Below, in pieces: positions 5,759 through 25,243 of a stretch of 64,000 nucleotides of DNA (its first letter is position 1; the number at the start of each line of letters is the position of its first letter). This DNA comes from Tetraselmis striata. Its lineage: Eukaryota > Chlorophyta > Chlorodendrophyceae > Chlorodendrales > Chlorodendraceae. A program made the translations under genes and the position numbers. The stretch covers positions 1 to 64,000 of the forward strand of contig VCJN01002684.1 of assembly GCA_006384855.1 (NCBI GenBank), given 5' to 3'. The notes under the pieces were generated by a model. The model was given only the letters and a program-made list of their open reading frames with translations. It made no database searches and was not told where the DNA came from.

Positions 5759-6149
5759 GTAATGGCGGTTTGTGCTAAGTAATTCTTAGGGGTAGACCAT
5801 GCAGCGCAGGTAGGGGGCGGTATAAATGAGGCCGGGCACATATACTGCTCCACGAAACGACACTGTCGCACGTGTAGTTGAATAGACGCCCCCCCCCCCC
5901 CCCCCCCGCCCCCCCCCCCCCCCCCCCGCCGGGTCGGCCCGCCGACCCGCCACGGCATGTAATATCTGTCATGCATCGCCGGGGTATGTATGTGTGAGTG
6001 GATACCCCGCCGCCACATCCCCCCCCCCCCCCCCCCCCCCCCCCATTTACACTTGTGCACTCATAAAGTTTGGGCTGGTTTCGGAGCAATACATGTACGT
6101 ATGTATATACATAGAATGGAACGTAGGACCTGCGCGGAAAGAGGGGGGG
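5759..6149. other. Spacer with three long poly-C runs
   Basis: Two C19 runs separated by one G (5889-5927) and a further C run near 6019-6044 dominate. Translations across them give only poly-Gly or poly-Pro. No gene seen. Confidence 0.7.
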
Positions 6150-7310
6150 CTGGCGGAATGCGTTGGGGGTGCGTAGAGTAGCGTGTTGGTGAGATTTGGG
6201 GTGCATCGGACGCCGGATGCCCATCCACCCAGCGTAAAAGACGCGTACGGAATATTCACACTATATGTATTCACACGCAAATGTGTGAAAACCGGACATT
6301 CCGTGCCGGATGGGTGGGAATACGGCGTCCGATGCAGCCAAAACCCCAGCAACACGCTATTCTGTGCACCGCCAATGCACTCCGCCAGCACCGCCTCATT
6401 CTCTGTCGATTTCGAAAACGCCTTCACATTACCCACCGCTAATTGCAATTGCCACCGTGTAATGTTGTCACGATGTGCGCACACAACAACACTTACTACC
6501 GGTTCCGACGCGGATGGAGGCGAGGCTTGCGGAGTGCGTTGGGGGTGCGTAGAGTAGCGTGCTGCAAATAATTGGGGTGCATCGGACGCCGGATGCCCAC
6601 CCACCCGGCGTAAAAGACGCGTAATATTCACACGTTATTAACACACAAATGTATGAAAACCGGACATTCCGTGCCGGATGGGTGGGAATACGGCGTCCGA
6701 TGCAGCCAAAACCCCAGCAACACGCTATTCTGTGCACCGCCAATGCACTCCGCCAGCACCGCCTCATTCTCTGTCGATTTCGAAAACGCCTTCACATTAC
6801 CCACCGCTAATTGCAATTGCCACCGTGTAATGTTGTCACGATGTGCGCACACAACAACACTTACTACCGGTTCCGACGCGGATGGAGGCGAGGCTTGCGG
6901 AGTGCGTTTGGGGGTGCGTAGAGTAGCGTGCTGCAAATAATTGGGGTGCATCGGACGCCGGATGCCGCACCCACCCGGCGTAAAAGACGCGTAATATTCA
7001 CACTGCTTTATTAACACACAAATGTGTGAAAACCGGACATTCCGTGCCGGATGGGTGGGAATACGGCGTCCGATGCAGCCAAAACCCCAGCAACACGCTA
7101 TTCTGTGCACCGCCAATGCACTCCGCCAGCACCGCCTCATTCTCTGTCGATTTCGAAAACGCCTTCACATTATCCACCGCTAATAATTGCAATTGCCACC
7201 GTGTAATGTTGTCACGATGTGCGCACACAACAACACTTACTACCGGTTCCGACGCGGATGGAGGCGAGGCTTGCGGAGTGCACTTGCGGTGCACAGACTA
7301 GCGGGAGACT
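6150..7310. mobile_element. Tandem array of three ~0.37-kb inverted-repeat elements
   Basis: Units start at about 6196, 6572 and 6941 (periods 376 and 369 bp). Within each unit an arm of about 80-90 bp (GCGGAGTGCGTTGGGGGTGC through GCATCGGACGCCG and CCCACCC) is matched by its reverse complement (GGGTGGGAATACGGCGTCC through AACACGCTATTCTGTGCAC). Between arms lies about 130 bp of unique core containing GCTAATTGCAATTG. This looks like a MITE-type element with long terminal inverted repeats that has been amplified head to tail. There is no transposase; the ORFs in the array are repeat translations. An incomplete arm closes the array at about 7280-7310. Confidence 0.85.
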
Positions 7311-14162: not shown

Positions 14163-14555
14163 GTCCGCTTAACCGCGCTTACCACATAGTAAGGTCGAGT
14201 AAGCGCATGTCTGTAGCAAGCTTAACCCCCGCTTAACGTTAAGCGCCGCAGCACTTTATTTCAGGGTAGAGGCATGTGTACGGCAGCGATGTCTTGCACT
14301 GAGTACTAGAGAATAGCGTGACGAGTAGCGCCACCCGTAGTCGGAAGTCATCACTACAGGTCTACAGGGCACCAGTAGTCGCGAGTTATCACTACATAAG
14401 GTACGGCGGGAGTGGCACGAGTACAGTACTCAACGATACTCTAGAAAATCACCAAGCGCGGCGGTAAGCGCGACTACTCCGCTACTACTCGCGAGTAGTC
14501 GCGTGGGTTCAAACGTGACGGGCGGGAGCTGCAGTACTGTTCGCCACATACCGAC

Positions 14556-14687
14556 TATTGAGATATCAAGCTCGAAAAGGGTGCCGATCGGACTTGGATG
14601 TCATCATCCGATATTGTAGAGCTTGAATACCCGTATGAACCGGGCCGAGGACCACACCACATGACTGTACGAGGTACTGTCCCAACA
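14556..14687 (-). repeat. TRIM 3' LTR
   Basis: This LTR comes last in minus-strand orientation. It is preceded by the purine-rich tract read on the minus strand from 14697 to 14688. Confidence 0.88.
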
Positions 14688-14939
14688 CCCCTCCTGGTTC
14701 CGAGGAGAGGGAGGACAGGAAAGTCTGGGTAGAGATCCTAGGACCTGAGCCATAGAAGCCGGGAACATCCGCGCTTGAGCCTTGATGTAGGAGAATTTCT
14801 GGGATCTGATGATCGCGTCACCGGAAGCTGCGAATCGGTCTTACACCGGATATAGAGGAAGAAGGAGAACCCATGAAATCTTGAAATGCTTCAAGCGGGA
14901 GTCGAACTAACCCGGGTATGTTGTCATACAGGTTCGCCA

Positions 14940-14956
14940 CCTAAGCTCCGAAACCA
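14940..14956 (-). promoter_or_regulatory. Primer-binding site of the TRIM
   Basis: TGGTTTCGGAGCTTAGG abuts the 5' LTR. It would pair with a tRNA 3' end reading CCTAAGCTCCGAAACCA. Farther in, the plus strand continues with GGTTCG, like a T-loop, so complementarity to the primer tRNA may extend. I could not name the tRNA. Confidence 0.75.
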
Positions 14957-15084
14957 TATTGAGATATCAAGCTCCGGGTGCCGATCGGACTTGCATGTCA
15001 TCATCCGATATTGTAGAGCTTGAATACCCGTCCGAACCGGGCCGAGGACCACACCACAGGACTGTACGAGGTCCTGTCCCAACG
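14957..15084 (-). repeat. TRIM 5' LTR
   Basis: This LTR comes first in minus-strand orientation. It differs from its partner by a small indel near GCTC and a few substitutions, so insertion was not very recent. Confidence 0.88.
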
Positions 15085-15480
15085 CCGACAACGTGATAAA
15101 TACAGCGGAAATGAATTTCATGCTGGCGGCGGATGATTTGAGGTTTTATAAAAGTAGAAGCGCCAGGCTGGATGTTGCCAACCCAAAAGCCAATGAAACT
15201 GGAGCTTCTAACTGTAGTTAAGCGCATTTAAGCGCGCTTAATCCTATCTGGCAAATTTAATAGGTGCGTGTCGGTCACTTTCAGTTTTATGCAGGTGGGG
15301 TCGGACACTGTGCGAAAGTATTGAGAAATAAACCAGAAAATGTAATTACATCTGACCGCTATTGCCCTTGGCCGCCGCCGCGGCGCGGCCTGCTACCGCG
15401 GCGGCCTGCTGGGGCCGCGCTGCCGGGGCTGCGCCGCCGCTGACCTCTTCCGCCTACCGCCGGCTTGTGGTGCTATGCCC

Positions 15481-17994: not shown

Positions 17995-19150
17995 TACTAT
18001 GGACTGCGTGAAGCATGATCCCCAAATAGTCCAAAGCCCCCACGCAGTGGCCGCTCCACATGCATGGTGCCCACACAGCACTATCCACCATCCCACAGCC
18101 CCATGCAGCGGCGGCTCCACTCCTATCCCTACACCTTAATCATAAATCAGCGGTCGCTCCGCCCCTCGCCCCAAGCCTTCATCCATCAACCCATAGCCCA
18201 GCGCAGCGGCCGCTCCGCCCCTTGCCTCACACCTTCATCCATCAATCATCAGACCCGCGCAGCGGCCGCTCCGCGCCTCGACCCACACCTTCATCCCTAA
18301 TTCATCAGACCCGCGCAGCGGCCGCTCCGCGCCTCGCCCCGCACCTTCATCCATCAATCATCAGACCCGCGCAGCGGTCGCTCCGCCCCTCGCCCCGCAC
18401 CTTCATCCGTAAACCCATAATCCCGCGCAGCGGCCGCTCCGCCCCTTTCCCCACACCTTCATTTATAAATCATCAGACACGCGCAGCGGCCGCTCCGCCC
18501 CTTGCCCCACACCTTCATTCATAAGCACAAAGCCCGGCACAACGGCCGCTCCGCTCCTAGCCCAACTACCTTCATCCCTAATTCATCAGACCCGCGCAGC
18601 GGCCGCTCCGCCCATACCCCAACAGCTTCATTCCTGAACCAATAGCCCCGCGCAGCGGCCGCTCCTCCCTTGCCCCTATCAGCATCATCCACACCTCTAC
18701 AGCCCCGCACAGGGGCCGATCCATCCATAGTATAGTCCCACCATTTCCACCCACCTCCCCACAGCCCCGCGCAGCGGCCACTTTGCCACCATCACTATCC
18801 GCAAACCCACAGCCCCGTTGTGTGTTCGGCATGTCCACCGCCATTTCCAAACAAACCTTTACTGCCCCGCCGCAGCGGCCGTTCCGCCTCTAGCCTCATC
18901 ATCTCCCTCACCACCCCACAGTCCCGCGCAGTGGCCGATGCGCCCACAGCTCCGCCAGCCTACATCACCGAGAAGCACTTTGCACTCCTAGCAGCTTCGC
19001 CCGGCATCTGCCATGCCCTGCCGCGGCGTTCCTTAGCTTAGATTCGTGGCTATGTAGCCCCGCGCAGCAACTTGCCCGGCCGCGGTCACTGCCCGCAGAA
19101 ATAGCGCCACTCGCAACCGCTGACGGCTGGCAGGCCCGCGTAGCGGCCAG
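17995..19150. repeat. NotI-rich minisatellite, ~58-bp unit
   Basis: At least fifteen degenerate units share CGCGCAGCGGCCGCTCCGCC then a CACCTTCATCCATCAATCAT-like spacer; most carry a NotI site (GCGGCCGC). Unit edges and spacers decay toward both ends. Plus-strand frames read through as Arg/Pro/Ser repeats (for example 18060-18524), but this is a by-product of the repeat. Confidence 0.9.
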
Positions 19151-19614: not shown

Positions 19615-19801
19615 ATGATCTAAACTAGTTTATGGGGTTTCCATCCTTGACCTAACCGCTTTTCAGCTACAAGTGCTGCGCAGTGGTACGGGAACTAGTA
19701 ACTGTTGTTGCGCCCTTGTTGGGTGCAGCACGAGTAGACATAAAAGCAGCCAGAACAGCTGAGCCTGCCATCTTCCAGTTTTCGCTGCGTTCCACGCAGC
19801 G
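19615..19801 (+). repeat. A1 repeat of the recombinase element
   Basis: 187 bp from ATGATCTAAACTAGTTTATG to TTCCACGCAGCG; the same as A2. It ends 114 bp before the ORF1 start and probably carries the promoter. Confidence 0.93.
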
Positions 19802-19914
19802 ATGTAAAAACTGTCTCGTAACCCGTTGCGAGCAAGGTCACCCCAGGTTGTTCAAGACCACACCCGGCTCGCCATCCGAGTGTGATATTCTCGTCCGTAC
19901 GTCCGTGCGTTACT

Positions 19915-20769
19915 ATGTCAGATGGAGATGAACCCGTCGTTGAGCCGACGCTCACGTCGTTGCAAGCAGATGTGCGTGCATTGGCTACAGCTGTGGCACA
20001 ATTGACGGCTCGTGATCGTGCTGTTGATGGAGAAGGGGCACATGGCTCCGGCTCAGGGCAGCGCTTCGCGGGACAGCCGACAGGCAGCGGGGGAGCCGCA
20101 GAGCGCCCCGACTTGCTAGAGCTAGCCCAGAGCGGCCGTGTCGGAGCAAAATCCGTGAGTGCCGAGGAAGATTACCTCGCGGTGCCAGAGCTACTGCAGA
20201 GAGCAGAGTCTGGTTACGAGGCCGTTCGACCGGTCAGCCGAGTGCCTGGACTTTTCCCGTTGAGCACCGACCTAACGAACGAGTACCTCAAGCAGGATTA
20301 CCGGCGTCTGCCGGCCCAGGAGGAGTACTTGTGGATGTCGTGTTTCGGGGCTCACATGGCCGCCCTTTTCGTGGCGCTCGACGAGCTGCTACCTTACGTC
20401 CCCGCCACTAACCAGGACTTCACCCCCTACCTCGCGAGAGCTCGGAATCACGCCGAGGCCATCGACAAGGCGTTCCGTTTTCGTCTAGCCTTCCTGCGGA
20501 GGCTGAATGAGATCAAGCGTGTGCACGGTGACCAAGGTGTTCTGGATGTGCTGCGAGCTCAGCATTTTCAGCCTGCTGCGGAGCATCTGGGTTCTGCGAT
20601 TTTTGGGGACCTGATGAGGGACTACGAGCGTCGTGTCTTCGAGGCGACCGTTGCCAGCAGCGCCAAGGCGACCGCTACTTCTCGAGTAGCGGCTGCAGCT
20701 GCAGGTCGCGGGCGTGGGCGAGGACGTGGAGGCGGACGTGGACGCGGCCGCGAAGGTGAGCACGAATGA
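19915..20769 (+). CDS. ORF1, gag-like protein with RG-rich tail
   Basis: Chosen start ATG at 19915 (MSDGDEPVVEPTLTSLQADV), 284 residues; an in-frame upstream start lies at 19882. Residues about 15-35 form a predicted helix/coiled coil (heptad-like Leu/Val), 40-95 are Gly/Ser/Glu-rich and disordered, 125-240 are helical and compact (EYLWMSCFGAHMAALFVALD, RFRLAFLRRLNEIKRVHGDQ), and the last 25 residues are an RGRGRGRGGGRGRG box of the sort that binds RNA. There is no CCHC knuckle. In position and composition it matches the first ORF of retroelements (nucleocapsid role), but homology is unproven. A strong splice donor (GAAG|GTGAGC) sits at 20755, inside the RG box. Confidence 0.7.
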   Translation: MSDGDEPVVEPTLTSLQADVRALATAVAQLTARDRAVDGEGAHGSGSGQRFAGQPTGSGGAAERPDLLELAQSGRVGAKSVSAEEDYLAVPELLQRAESGYEAVRPVSRVPGLFPLSTDLTNEYLKQDYRRLPAQEEYLWMSCFGAHMAALFVALDELLPYVPATNQDFTPYLARARNHAEAIDKAFRFRLAFLRRLNEIKRVHGDQGVLDVLRAQHFQPAAEHLGSAIFGDLMRDYERRVFEATVASSAKATATSRVAAAAAGRGRGRGRGGGRGRGREGEHE

Positions 20770-20915
20770 TGGCGTGGGGCGCCGCTCGTCGGAGCTGCAG
20801 GAGCGTTGCGAGGCCACCTTTCGGTGACCGCCGCAAAACGCACCCTTGCAGCTCAACGGCGGGATGAGCGCCCTGTGTCAGGACCTGACCCCCCCACCTT
20901 ACAGACTTCACTTAG

Positions 20916-22409
20916 ACCTTCCTCGGTGCAGCGTTTCTTACAGCTACAGCCGAGTGCGGCTCAACCATCCGCACACCTGCACATGGCGGCTCAACCATCC
21001 GCCTTTCCTACAACCCCATCTCTGCGTTCGTCGGTTGTTACACTACGTGTTACAACCGGTTCGCAACGACCAAGTTTCGCGCGTGTACGTTACGCACGGG
21101 ACAGGCGCTACGAGCGCGACGGGCGCGCGGGGCGGCCCTCTTACCTGAACCTAGCCCCGCAAACCCGTCCAGCAACTACCGGCCAACCGCCGGGAACCTA
21201 ACCGCTGCTGCCGAGTACTTTGCGAACAGTAGCCGTGCTAGTGGAACTCTGCCAGTAAAACGACGCACTTACGTAATTGACGAGCCCGCAGCTATCGCTC
21301 CATGGGCTGCGTCACTGCGATCTCGGCTGTAGGACGCGTTCGGCTCAGACGAGCTCGGCCAGCGGACGCTGGACCTGCTCTCCAGCTCCCTCAGCGCGCA
21401 GACCCTCAAGAGCTACGCCGGCAGACTGTCTCAGTTCGCTGAGTTCTGCCACGACTCCGAGAACATCAGCCCGCTGGAGGCGACTACTGCTACTGTTGTT
21501 CGGTACGTTGCCTGGATCGGGGAGCGAGGTCACATCGCAGCTAAGTCGCTGCAGCCCTACCTGTCTGCCATCAACACCTTCTTCGAGCTGCACAACCTCG
21601 TCCCGATCGCCAAGGACAGCCTACACCTCACTTCGGCAAGGCGTGGGTTGATGTTGCGGCAGCGCCGGCTGGACGCTGCCCCTTTGCGTGTCCCTCTGCC
21701 TGCGGATGTAGCTTACCGCTTCGTCTCAAAGGCCGAGCTAATTGTGTCTGCTCCTTACCCAGAGTCCCACCTCGACTACCGAGCCCTCTTGGCTTCGGTT
21801 GTCAACTTCCTGTTCTTTGCCAGGGGCCTTACTGGCGTCTCCTGTCGAGCGCAAGATGCGCATGTCGACACCTACAACATCACCTTGCAGGTCTACCGCG
21901 AGAAGGGTCGCGCTGGCCGTCGGGGACCCGACGACCTGCGCGTACTTCTCCTTCCGGTGTCCGAGCACCCTCGAGTGGCACGACTCTTACGCTACTTCAT
22001 CGACAGTGTCCAGTCTGTCCCCCTGGTTACCGTTGGCTTGGCTGCCTCCAACTTCTGGGCTGTAAATGTGGCGGAGCAGTCAAAACCTTGGACTGCGGCT
22101 ACGATGTCAGACTGGTTGTCTACAGCGGTCAACCTAGTCAACGCAGCCCCTCCTGCTGGCACTTCCTGGACTTCACACAGTCTACGCAAGGGCGCAGCCT
22201 CTGCAGCAAACGCCATCGGAGCGCCACTGTCCCACATCCGCTACCAAGGCGGTTGGGCCACTAACTCCGATGTCGTCCTGGACTACATCGACCCCAACGT
22301 TCTTCCTTCTCCTGGCGCGTGGTTCTTCTTTGGACACATCGCCCCCCTCCGCCACTTCCAAGTCCAACAGGACTCCGCAGCGGTGGCCTTCCCAGTGCCT
22401 CCTTCATGA
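20916..22409 (+). CDS. ORF2, tyrosine recombinase with one in-frame TAG
   Basis: One frame is open from 20916 to 22409 except for TAG at 21330-21332. The recombinase is recognisable from about 21336: an N-terminal SAM-like core-binding domain (QTLKSYAGRLSQFAEFC, KSLQPYLSAINTFFE) and a C-terminal catalytic domain with Arg in GLTGVSCRAQDAHVD, the HxxR motif in TSHSLRKGAASAANAIGA, a GGW motif and the nucleophile candidate Tyr in VLDYIDP. The decayed relative at 27.1 kb aligns across the stop (DAFGSDELG against EALYGTDVWG), so the TAG lies inside coding sequence: a lesion, recoding, or a 76-nt intron (donor 21257) removing it. Upstream in another frame (20806-21201) lies a Pro/Ser-rich stretch with an AAQPSA repeat, possibly the N-terminus before a frame change. 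Confidence 0.82.
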
Positions 22410-22462
22410 CTTGGCGCTACCCCTTCTCCGTCAATCCACCGCTCTCTACGTTCGCTCAAGAC

Positions 22463-22489
22463 TGGCAAAACCAGACTCAACTTTGAAAT
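22463..22489 (+). repeat. B1 repeat of the recombinase element
   Basis: 27 bp TGGCAAAACCAGACTCAACT then TTGAAAT, same as B2, fused to the start of A2 with a two-base overlap. Confidence 0.88.
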
Positions 22490-22674
22490 GATCTAAACTA
22501 GTTTATGGGGTTTCCATCCTTGACCTAACCGCTTTTCAGCTACAAGTGCTGCGCAGTGGTACGGGAACTAGTAACTGTTGTTGCGCCCTTGTTGGGTGCA
22601 GCACGAGTAGACATAAAAGCAGCCAGAACAGCTGAGCCTGCCATCTTCCAGTTTTCGCTGCGTTCCACGCAGCG
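22488..22674 (+). repeat. A2 repeat of the recombinase element
   Basis: Same 187 bp as A1 with no difference that I can see, implying recent mobility or gene conversion. Confidence 0.93.
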
Positions 22675-22767
22675 CCCCCCCTGACTCCGTTTTCCCTCCA
22701 CGCCTTTCGCTAAACCTTCCTGCCAATTTCGGCTCTTGACCGTGTAAAACAGCCTGCGCGACCTTTT

Positions 22768-22794
22768 TGGCAAAACCAGACTCAACTTTGAAAT
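22768..22794 (+). repeat. B2 repeat, right end of the recombinase element
   Basis: The 27-bp copy of B1. It is separated from A2 by 93 bp of C/T-rich sequence that is only loosely similar to the bases upstream of B1. Confidence 0.85.
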
Positions 22795-24499: not shown

Positions 24500-25243
24500 G
24501 CCGCAGGCTGACCGGGCAGAAGAGGCCCGCGGCAGCGCAGTCGCCGGGCAGTTGTAGCACGCCGCCGCGTCGCGGCGGCGGCCGCGGGCACCAGAGGGCC
24601 CATAAAATTACATTTTCTGATTTGTTTCTCAGTACTCTCGCACAGTGTCCGAACCCACCTGCATGAAACTGAAAGTGACCGATACTCACCTGTCAAATTT
24701 GCCAAATAGGATTAAGAGTGCTTAAATGCGCTTAACTACAACTAGAAGCTCCACTCTCATTGGCTGTTGGGTTGGCAACATCCTGCCTGGCGCTCTTGCT
24801 CTGATTAAACCTGACACCATCCGCCGCCCGCGTGAAATTCATTTCCGCTCTCTTTATCACGTTGTCGGTATGTGGCGAACAGTACTGCAACTCGTTACGT
24901 TTGAACCACCGCAACTACTCGCGAGTAGTCGCAGAGTAATCGCGCTTACTGCCGCGCTCACTGATTTTTTAGAATATCACAAAGTATTGTACTCGTACCA
25001 CTCCCGCCGTACCTTATAGTGATGACTCGCAACTACTCGCGACTGTTGGTGGCGCTACTCGTAAGGCTATTCTCTATTACTCGGTGCAAGATATCGCTGC
25101 CGTACACATGCCTCCAGCCGGAAATTAAGTCATGCGGCGCTTACCGGCTAAGCGGTGTTGATCTTGCTACATACATGCGCTTCCTTGCGCTAACTATTAT
25201 TTCGGTAAGCGCGGTTTAGCGGACCACGTTTCGACGAGTGACG
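24500..25243. mobile_element. Right arm of the large inverted repeat, uninterrupted
   Basis: Reverse complement of 14148-15480 minus the TRIM. The outer end (25205-25243) reads GCGCGGTTTAGCGGACCACG then TTTCGACGAGTG. The stretch at 24860-24885 preserves the pre-insertion TRIM target. Minus- and plus-strand ORFs of 60-97 codons in the arm are not conserved as proteins between the two arms. Confidence 0.7.

Follow-up and report, generated by a model that had tools for sequence, protein, structure and literature searches.

A 64,000-nucleotide stretch of the Tetraselmis striata genome (GenBank assembly GCA_006384855.1, contig VCJN01002684.1, positions 1 to 64,000; hereafter the window) carries at positions 19615 to 22794 a 3.2-kb mobile element, which combines the split direct repeats known from PAT and Ngaro elements with two open reading frames (ORFs), one for a putative gag-like protein and one for a tyrosine recombinase (YR), and which has no reverse transcriptase (RT). 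The family to which it belongs comprises about 1,300 copies, or roughly 4 Mb, just under 2% of the assembly. We conclude that it is probably a DIRS-order-like, high-copy element that makes its own gag-like protein and YR, borrows RT in trans and moves through an RNA intermediate; that an RNA serves as intermediate, that RT is supplied in trans and that ORF1 acts as Gag are what we infer from the sequences.

The original prediction, made from the letters of the window, had proposed an undescribed element type. The novelty appears to lie in the gene combination (gag-like protein and YR, no RT), which we did not find described, while the anatomy of the ends on which it sits was already known. In the listed titles and abstract openings of the open-licence literature, we found no account of this family or of DIRS elements in T. 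striata.

Split direct repeats of the window copy

The features of the window copy are as follows, all on the forward (+) strand.

19615..19801, +, A1, left terminal repeat, 187 bp (repeat comparison within the window)
19740-19746, +, TATA-like ATAAAAG in A1
19802..22462, +, unique interior, 2,661 bp, no reverse transcriptase (Pfam on ORFs; copy alignment)
19915..20769, +, ORF1 (P0001), 284 amino acids in the window, arginine-glycine (RG)-rich C-terminus (open frame)
20770..22409, +, ORF2 region, interrupted in the window copy
21333..22409, +, YR part of ORF2 (P0002), 358 amino acids (Pfam, conserved residues)
22463..22489, +, B1, internal 27-bp repeat (repeat comparison)
22488..22674, +, A2, internal copy of A, 187 bp (repeat comparison)
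22613, +, second TATA-like box, in A2
22675..22767, +, unique 93-bp tail separating A2 from B2
22743-22747, +, TGTAA in the tail, possible poly(A) signal
22768..22794, +, B2, right terminal repeat, 27 bp (repeat comparison)

Repeat comparison confirmed the A1-ORFs-B1-A2-B2 layout that had been read from the sequence: A1 and A2 were 100% identical over 187 bp, B1 and B2 were 100% identical over 27 bp, and the last 2 nt of B1 doubled as the first 2 nt of A2. Exact matches to the 21-base B1-A2 junction, the presumed circle junction, were found at 764 places in the host assembly (224 Mb in 2,903 contigs, with the window on contig C2165) and at 0 places in the reversed control, so that the split-repeat arrangement is not a product of chance. 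The TATA-like box, which starts 61 bp from the end of A, was present in A1 of all 23 aligned copies. TGTAA, a green-algal poly(A) signal, sits 25 bp upstream of B2, and its context GTGTAAAACAGC was kept in 21 of the 23 copies. Scans of the 64-kb window for tRNA genes and Rfam families gave no match.

Two open reading frames under purifying selection

ORF1 was 291 amino acids long from the first Met in 18 of the 23 aligned copies, and the window copy carries a 21-bp in-frame deletion relative to the copy L036. We found no meaningful Pfam family match in ORF1 and, by inspection, no CCHC knuckle; its position and its RG-rich tail suggest that it is gag-like. In most fetched copies, ORF2 follows in the same frame, separated from ORF1 by one stop codon. 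Both frames were open in 14 of the 23 aligned copies (counted without a start-codon check), and in these ORF2 had 553 amino acids in 12 and 554 in 2. Its first Met is usually residue 71; the copy L051 lacks the usual one.

In the window, ORF2 is interrupted by a 22-bp frameshifting deletion at about 21158, unique to this copy among the 23, and by a stop at 21330. For this reason the original prediction saw only the recombinase part: the YR that it named is present, but its 358 amino acids (P0002) correspond to the last 358 residues of a 553-residue ORF2 in intact relatives. The window copy is a degenerate member of a family in which intact copies exist.

P0002 matched the Pfam families Phage_int_SAM_1 (E 2.7e-8) and Phage_integrase (E 8.3e-4, under that family's curated cut-off). 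Its residues R164, K191, H282, R285, W308 and Y318 make up the R-K-H-R-W-Y set of YRs (R164 and K191 were assigned by inspection), and its C-terminal recombinase motif aligned with Cre. No RT family was detected by Pfam, either in ORF1 or in the initial part of ORF2, which gave only a weak DUF2201_N match (E 0.08); the NCBIfam and PHROGs scans covered P0002 and P0004. Open frames and Pfam thus bore out an RG-tailed ORF1 and a YR, with no RT, within 2.66 kb.

We then compared the coding regions of the 23 copies. Over 253 pairs, which are not independent given the relatedness of the copies and the selection of most of them by a perfect A, the ratio of nonsynonymous to synonymous substitution rates (dN/dS) was 0.157 for ORF1 and 0.108 for the YR. 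The shifted-frame controls gave 1.14 and 2.05 for ORF1 and 1.81 and 2.51 for the YR. Clearly, ORF1 and the YR are maintained by strong purifying selection. In ORF2, the ratio was 0.317 for the region directly preceding the YR and 0.519 for the segment upstream of the first Met, and because of the latter value that segment may not be translated.

Copy number and RT-less interior across the genome

When the assembly was searched with A, there were 1,181 candidates; the 40 that were scored were all 100% identical. From this search 22 loci were fetched, which were therefore selected by a perfect A. In all 22, the interior before B1-A2 was of the identical type, aligned end to end and left no room for an RT. 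An internal deletion is present in L043, the first 81 bp of A1 are absent from L050, and L044 is a tandem array clipped by the fetched range. An RT between ORF1 and the YR in other copies, which the original prediction had named as the observation that would count against it, was seen in none of the sampled copies.

Because these loci had been chosen by a perfect A, marks independent of A were also counted, with up to two mismatches allowed and the reversed sequence as a control. The interior mark just after A1 (5' mark) was found at 1,300 places, the mark at the end of the YR gene (3' mark) at 1,359 and the tail mark at 1,236, each with 0 in the reversed control. These counts give the family size of about 1,300, and the further copies with the same A and B repeats that had been expected are thus present in large number. 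A marks numbered 2,280 and B marks 2,351. Since the A marks do not exceed 1,300 plus 1,236, there is no sign of another element that uses A. The idea of many solo A-tail-B forms was rejected, as tail marks were not in excess.

Spacings between 5' and 3' marks were taken from the first 100 listed places per search, with four listed 5' marks left out. A 3' mark was listed downstream of 71 of the 5' marks, and in 65 of these cases the spacing was 2,338-2,592 bp; one of the other six was at 5,835 bp (C272, with another 5' mark between), and five were at >10 kb. Neighbouring A marks were 2,876-2,949 bp apart in 38 of 46 listed pairs; spacings in the other eight pairs lay between 968 bp and 96 kb, with three at 8.8-11.5 kb (C110, C135 and C29). 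Contig C348 (12,154 bp), the site of the L044 array, consists mostly of head-to-tail A-interior-B units with a spacing of 2,917-2,923 bp and four 5' marks.

Eight loci were also picked by the B1-A2 junction. Five had a long interior stretch upstream of B1, L057 and L058 retained 359 and 494 nt of interior, and L060 was diverged (74-83%). When diverged copies were extended, L064 proved full length and RT-less, and L063 lacked the 5' part in the fetched stretch. The diverged relatives at L046 (3719-4289), L051 (2771-3272) and L060 were about 73-89% identical in most blocks, and two of the three adjoin younger copies. The relatives in L046 and L051 were considered as RT-bearing masters and set aside, because no RT was recognised by eye among their frames of at least 100 amino acids (no domain search was run on them). 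L060 likewise showed no RT frame by eye.

Relatives among proteins and gene models

The best 120 of 350 relatives of ORF2 (E <= 0.001) were 119 T. striata gene models (jgi/Tetstr1, TSEL names) and one JGI metagenome sequence. Three less closely related gene models, P0102, P0115 and P0061 (70-80% identity to P0003), join ORF1 and the YR without an RT, although such models could have spliced out sequence. The only carrier of an RT domain among these 120, P0085, was rejected as an RT-bearing relative: its partial RT reads as Ty3/gypsy, and it looks like a chimeric gene model. P0154 (1,016 amino acids, ENA source) encodes an RT together with a Phage_int_SAM_4 recombinase in a single frame, and its similarity to the YR of the RT-less element was 20% identity (E 8e-5) and weak in a profile comparison. 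Searches of viral and prokaryote genome contigs yielded 19 and 88 peptide-pattern matches, respectively, none of which was confirmed by tblastn.

Some further observations concern these gene models. The T. striata annotation counts the RT-less element as many genes. P0025 is seemingly chimeric, with an N-terminus that is RT-like by eye and has no Pfam RT match, and P0205 is seemingly chimeric as well, with the element fused to PF00504. P0007 and P0259, which probably share one 5,779-bp JGI metagenome contig, represent a relative with 90% identity over 87% of ORF2 and 96% over 58% of ORF1.

Insertion without target-site duplication

Among the fetched loci, four precise empty sites (for L036, L039, L042 and L045) were found in uninterrupted paralogous DNA. 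There was no target-site duplication, and the core was 1-3 bp: the shared bases at L036, L042 and L045 were AT, AT and T, and at L039 a 3-bp core was replaced. L048, L051 and other paralogues of L036, L039 and L045, whose matches were more offset or less identical, were left out of this count. The insertion of L042 lies within a B repeat of the RT-bearing element described below. Duplication-free insertion would be the expected outcome when a YR recombines a circle junction with a short core, and the pattern resembles the integration model of DIRS1-like elements in the excerpt of PMC3266345.

A PAT-type element with RT alongside the RT-less family

Dam methyltransferase is a companion domain of DIRS and PAT elements. 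A search for it gave 122 matches among the 150 scored of 777 candidates. One copy on contig C2142 (L062 1-1300 and L061 1-5001) reads as a PAT-type element of about 5.9 kb, with these repeats:

L062 138-338, A1 of the RT-bearing PAT-type element
L061 4103-4170 and 4728-4795, its 68-bp B repeats, the first overlapping A2 by five bases

It has a gag-type frame with a CCHC knuckle (by eye), followed by RT (E 1.9e-15), RNase H and Dam in one 696-amino-acid frame and then by an overlapping YR frame, which had no Pfam match and was called YR because of where it lies and because PHROGs gave an integrase match (E 0.0013). Across the genome, the B mark of the PAT-type element was found at 389 places. 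In 70 listed places, 29 of 36 B spacings were 616-636 bp, and three spacings of 4,734-4,745 bp (C547 and C779) look like head-to-tail arrays.

The repeats of the C2142 element had no BLASTN match to those of the RT-less element, and the YR in L061 had no significant BLASTP match to its YR, with a weak profile comparison. Since neither the repeats nor the YR match detectably, the RT-less element is not an internal deletion of the L062/L061 element. As a donor of RT, this PAT-type element is plausible. The original prediction had offered a non-autonomous parasite of a full DIRS element as one reading; this comes near the mechanism that we favour, except that the RT-less element does not derive from the L062/L061 element by deletion.

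A proposed RNA cycle with RT supplied in trans

In the cycle that we propose, transcription would start inside A1 and end near B2, so that the outer end of A1 and the greater part of B2 would be missing from the RNA. This RNA would be packaged by the gag-like protein, and an RT acting in trans, most plausibly from the RT-RNase H-Dam PAT-type elements of the same genome, would copy it. The internal B1-A2 block would serve as the template that restores both ends, joined as a B2/A1 circle, and the element's own YR would recombine the circle junction with a short matching target core, leaving no target-site duplication. Given the positions of the TATA-like box and TGTAA, a transcript running from A1 to near B2 would be short of exactly those parts that B1-A2 can restore.

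To compare the repeats of individual copies, interior marks were used to pick another ten copies, of which C71 was set aside because its A1 is truncated. In 8 of the 9 copies, the A1 was as near or nearer to its own A2 than to any other A2 (C4 being a tie), and A1 and A2 differed on average by 5.2 within copies vs 11.6 between copies. Such likeness within copies is expected if both repeats are remade from one template, and it counts in favour of an RNA intermediate.

Several points weigh against this model. The transcript start and the poly(A) site are predictions from sequence motifs. The nearest TGTAA in the RT-bearing element is 83 bp before B2, so that the argument from TGTAA does not hold generally. 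The two elements share no detectable repeat or YR similarity, which leaves recognition of the RNA by that RT without an evident basis, and the gag assignment of ORF1 comes from its position and RG tail. The matching of A1 and A2 could stem from gene conversion or circle recombination, and one copy, C80, had no closer match between its own A1 and A2. The wide A-A spacings in C110, C135 and C29 could hide an RT-bearing version.

Alternative explanations

It is possible, though we regard it as unlikely, that the element is a DNA-only YR transposon. It would form a DNA circle through B/A junctions, be copied by circular or host replication and be reintegrated by its YR, and the repeats would be recombination sites and footprints of arrays, with no function in reverse transcription. 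The absence of RT from the sampled copies and the YR-like insertion without duplication agree with such a route, and the head-to-tail units of C348 suggest that B/A junctions act as recombination sites. However, a plain circle needs neither the internal B1-A2 copy nor the tail, yet both are kept (the tail count nearly equals the 5' and 3' counts), which would favour an RNA intermediate. Independent A1 and A2 repeats would also drift apart within copies, yet they were matched. The arrays do not speak against an RNA route, because the RT-bearing element seems to form arrays too. The recombinase-only unit moving through a DNA circle, the second reading in the original prediction, is thus in keeping with the insertion pattern and the missing RT and is less favoured than the RNA route. 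Were it correct, an element with split repeats and a capsid-like protein that moves as DNA circles without reverse transcription would form a class between Cryptons and DIRS retrotransposons, to which we assign a low probability.

It is rather improbable that the element arose by deletion from a master that has these ends and an RT, whose proteins would mobilise it and which the assembly would lack or contain only in rare or diverged form. This is a common origin of non-autonomous elements, and both the three wide A-A spacings and an assembly in 2,903 contigs would leave room for a master. On the other hand, ORF1 and the YR are each under purifying selection in RT-less copies, which argues that they act for the RT-less element itself. 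In addition, the three gene models joining ORF1 and YR have no RT, the A-mark accounting leaves no surplus, and the sole RT-domain relative, P0085 (among the best 120 of 350), reads as a chimeric model.

Finally, an ordinary Crypton-type DNA transposon with repeats acquired by chance or secondarily is very improbable, because the element, although it encodes a YR and lacks RT as Cryptons do, has long split repeats fixed throughout, whereas Cryptons in the excerpt of PMC3212892 have no terminal inverted or long direct repeats and only short (4-6-bp) terminal repeats, and because Pfam gave no GCR1_C or DUF3504 match on the ORFs at E up to 1.

Comparison with known elements

In the classification of PMC4157794, as far as its excerpt goes, split direct repeats belong to the RT-bearing PAT, Ngaro and Viper elements, and the RT-less YR elements are Cryptons and TEC. 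The T. striata element has the A1...B1A2...B2 repeats that define PAT there, a YR with the full residue set and, at four empty sites, insertion without target-site duplication; RT, RNase H and methyltransferase were not found by Pfam on the ORFs, and the sampled copies have no room for an RT. It also has the split repeats without methyltransferase of Ngaro, and RT-RNase H was likewise missing from the ORFs and the sampled copies. The element was therefore not filed as PAT or Ngaro for want of an RT, nor as a Crypton, since it has long direct repeats (187 and 27 bp). It appears to work like PAT or Ngaro minus the RT; in pairwise comparison, its YR resembled P0154 weakly and gave no significant match to the YR in L061.

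With PAT and Toc elements, including the C2142 element, it shares the order A1-ORFs-B1A2-unique gap-B2, the overlap of B1 and A2 by a few bases, a TATA-like box within A, the gag-type frame at the start and the YR at the end, and apparent head-to-tail arrays. It differs in the absence of RT, RNase H and Dam and in its size of 3.2 kb vs about 5.9 kb, and its ORF1 lacks the CCHC knuckle that the C2142 gag-type frame has. To our knowledge, TOC1 of Chlamydomonas is a split-repeat element without RT and without coding capacity for a recombinase; the T. striata element differs in keeping ORF1 and YR under selection.

With Ngaro elements it shares the split repeats, the lack of methyltransferase, a gag-like ORF1 and a terminal YR. 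According to the excerpt of PMC8547959, the Ngaros of Cafeteria have the layout A1-[ORFs]-B1A2B2 with RT-RNase H encoded in ORF2 and leave isolated AB repeats, whereas the T. striata element encodes no RT-RNase H and shows no excess of tail marks. With Cryptons it has in common a YR without RT and a presumed circular intermediate; the long direct repeats are found only in the T. striata element, and the GCR1_C and DUF3504 domains were not detected in it.

At high copy number, the family breaks the pairing of split direct repeats with RT-bearing YR retrotransposons in the excerpted classification of PMC4157794. If RT comes in trans, it would be a retroelement that retains packaging and integration and has outsourced polymerisation alone, and the little-tested DIRS-order cycle (recognition of the RNA by RT, circle formation) would become experimentally separable. 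If RT is not used, the family would be an intermediate between DNA and RNA YR elements and would be relevant to the proposal that Cryptons contributed to the origin of DIRS elements.

Other repeats in the window

The element is flanked, about 4 kb to the left and 2 kb to the right, by an inverted repeat pair (14186-15389 and 24564-25197; three blocks of 125-305 nt with 80-86% complementarity); its two arms are probably copies of another repeat. A minisatellite at 18092-18960, with units of about 56 bp around CGCAGCGGCCGCTCC, ends about 650 bp to the left of the element. At 6133-7286, a unit of about 370 bp is present in three tandem copies with internal inverted segments.

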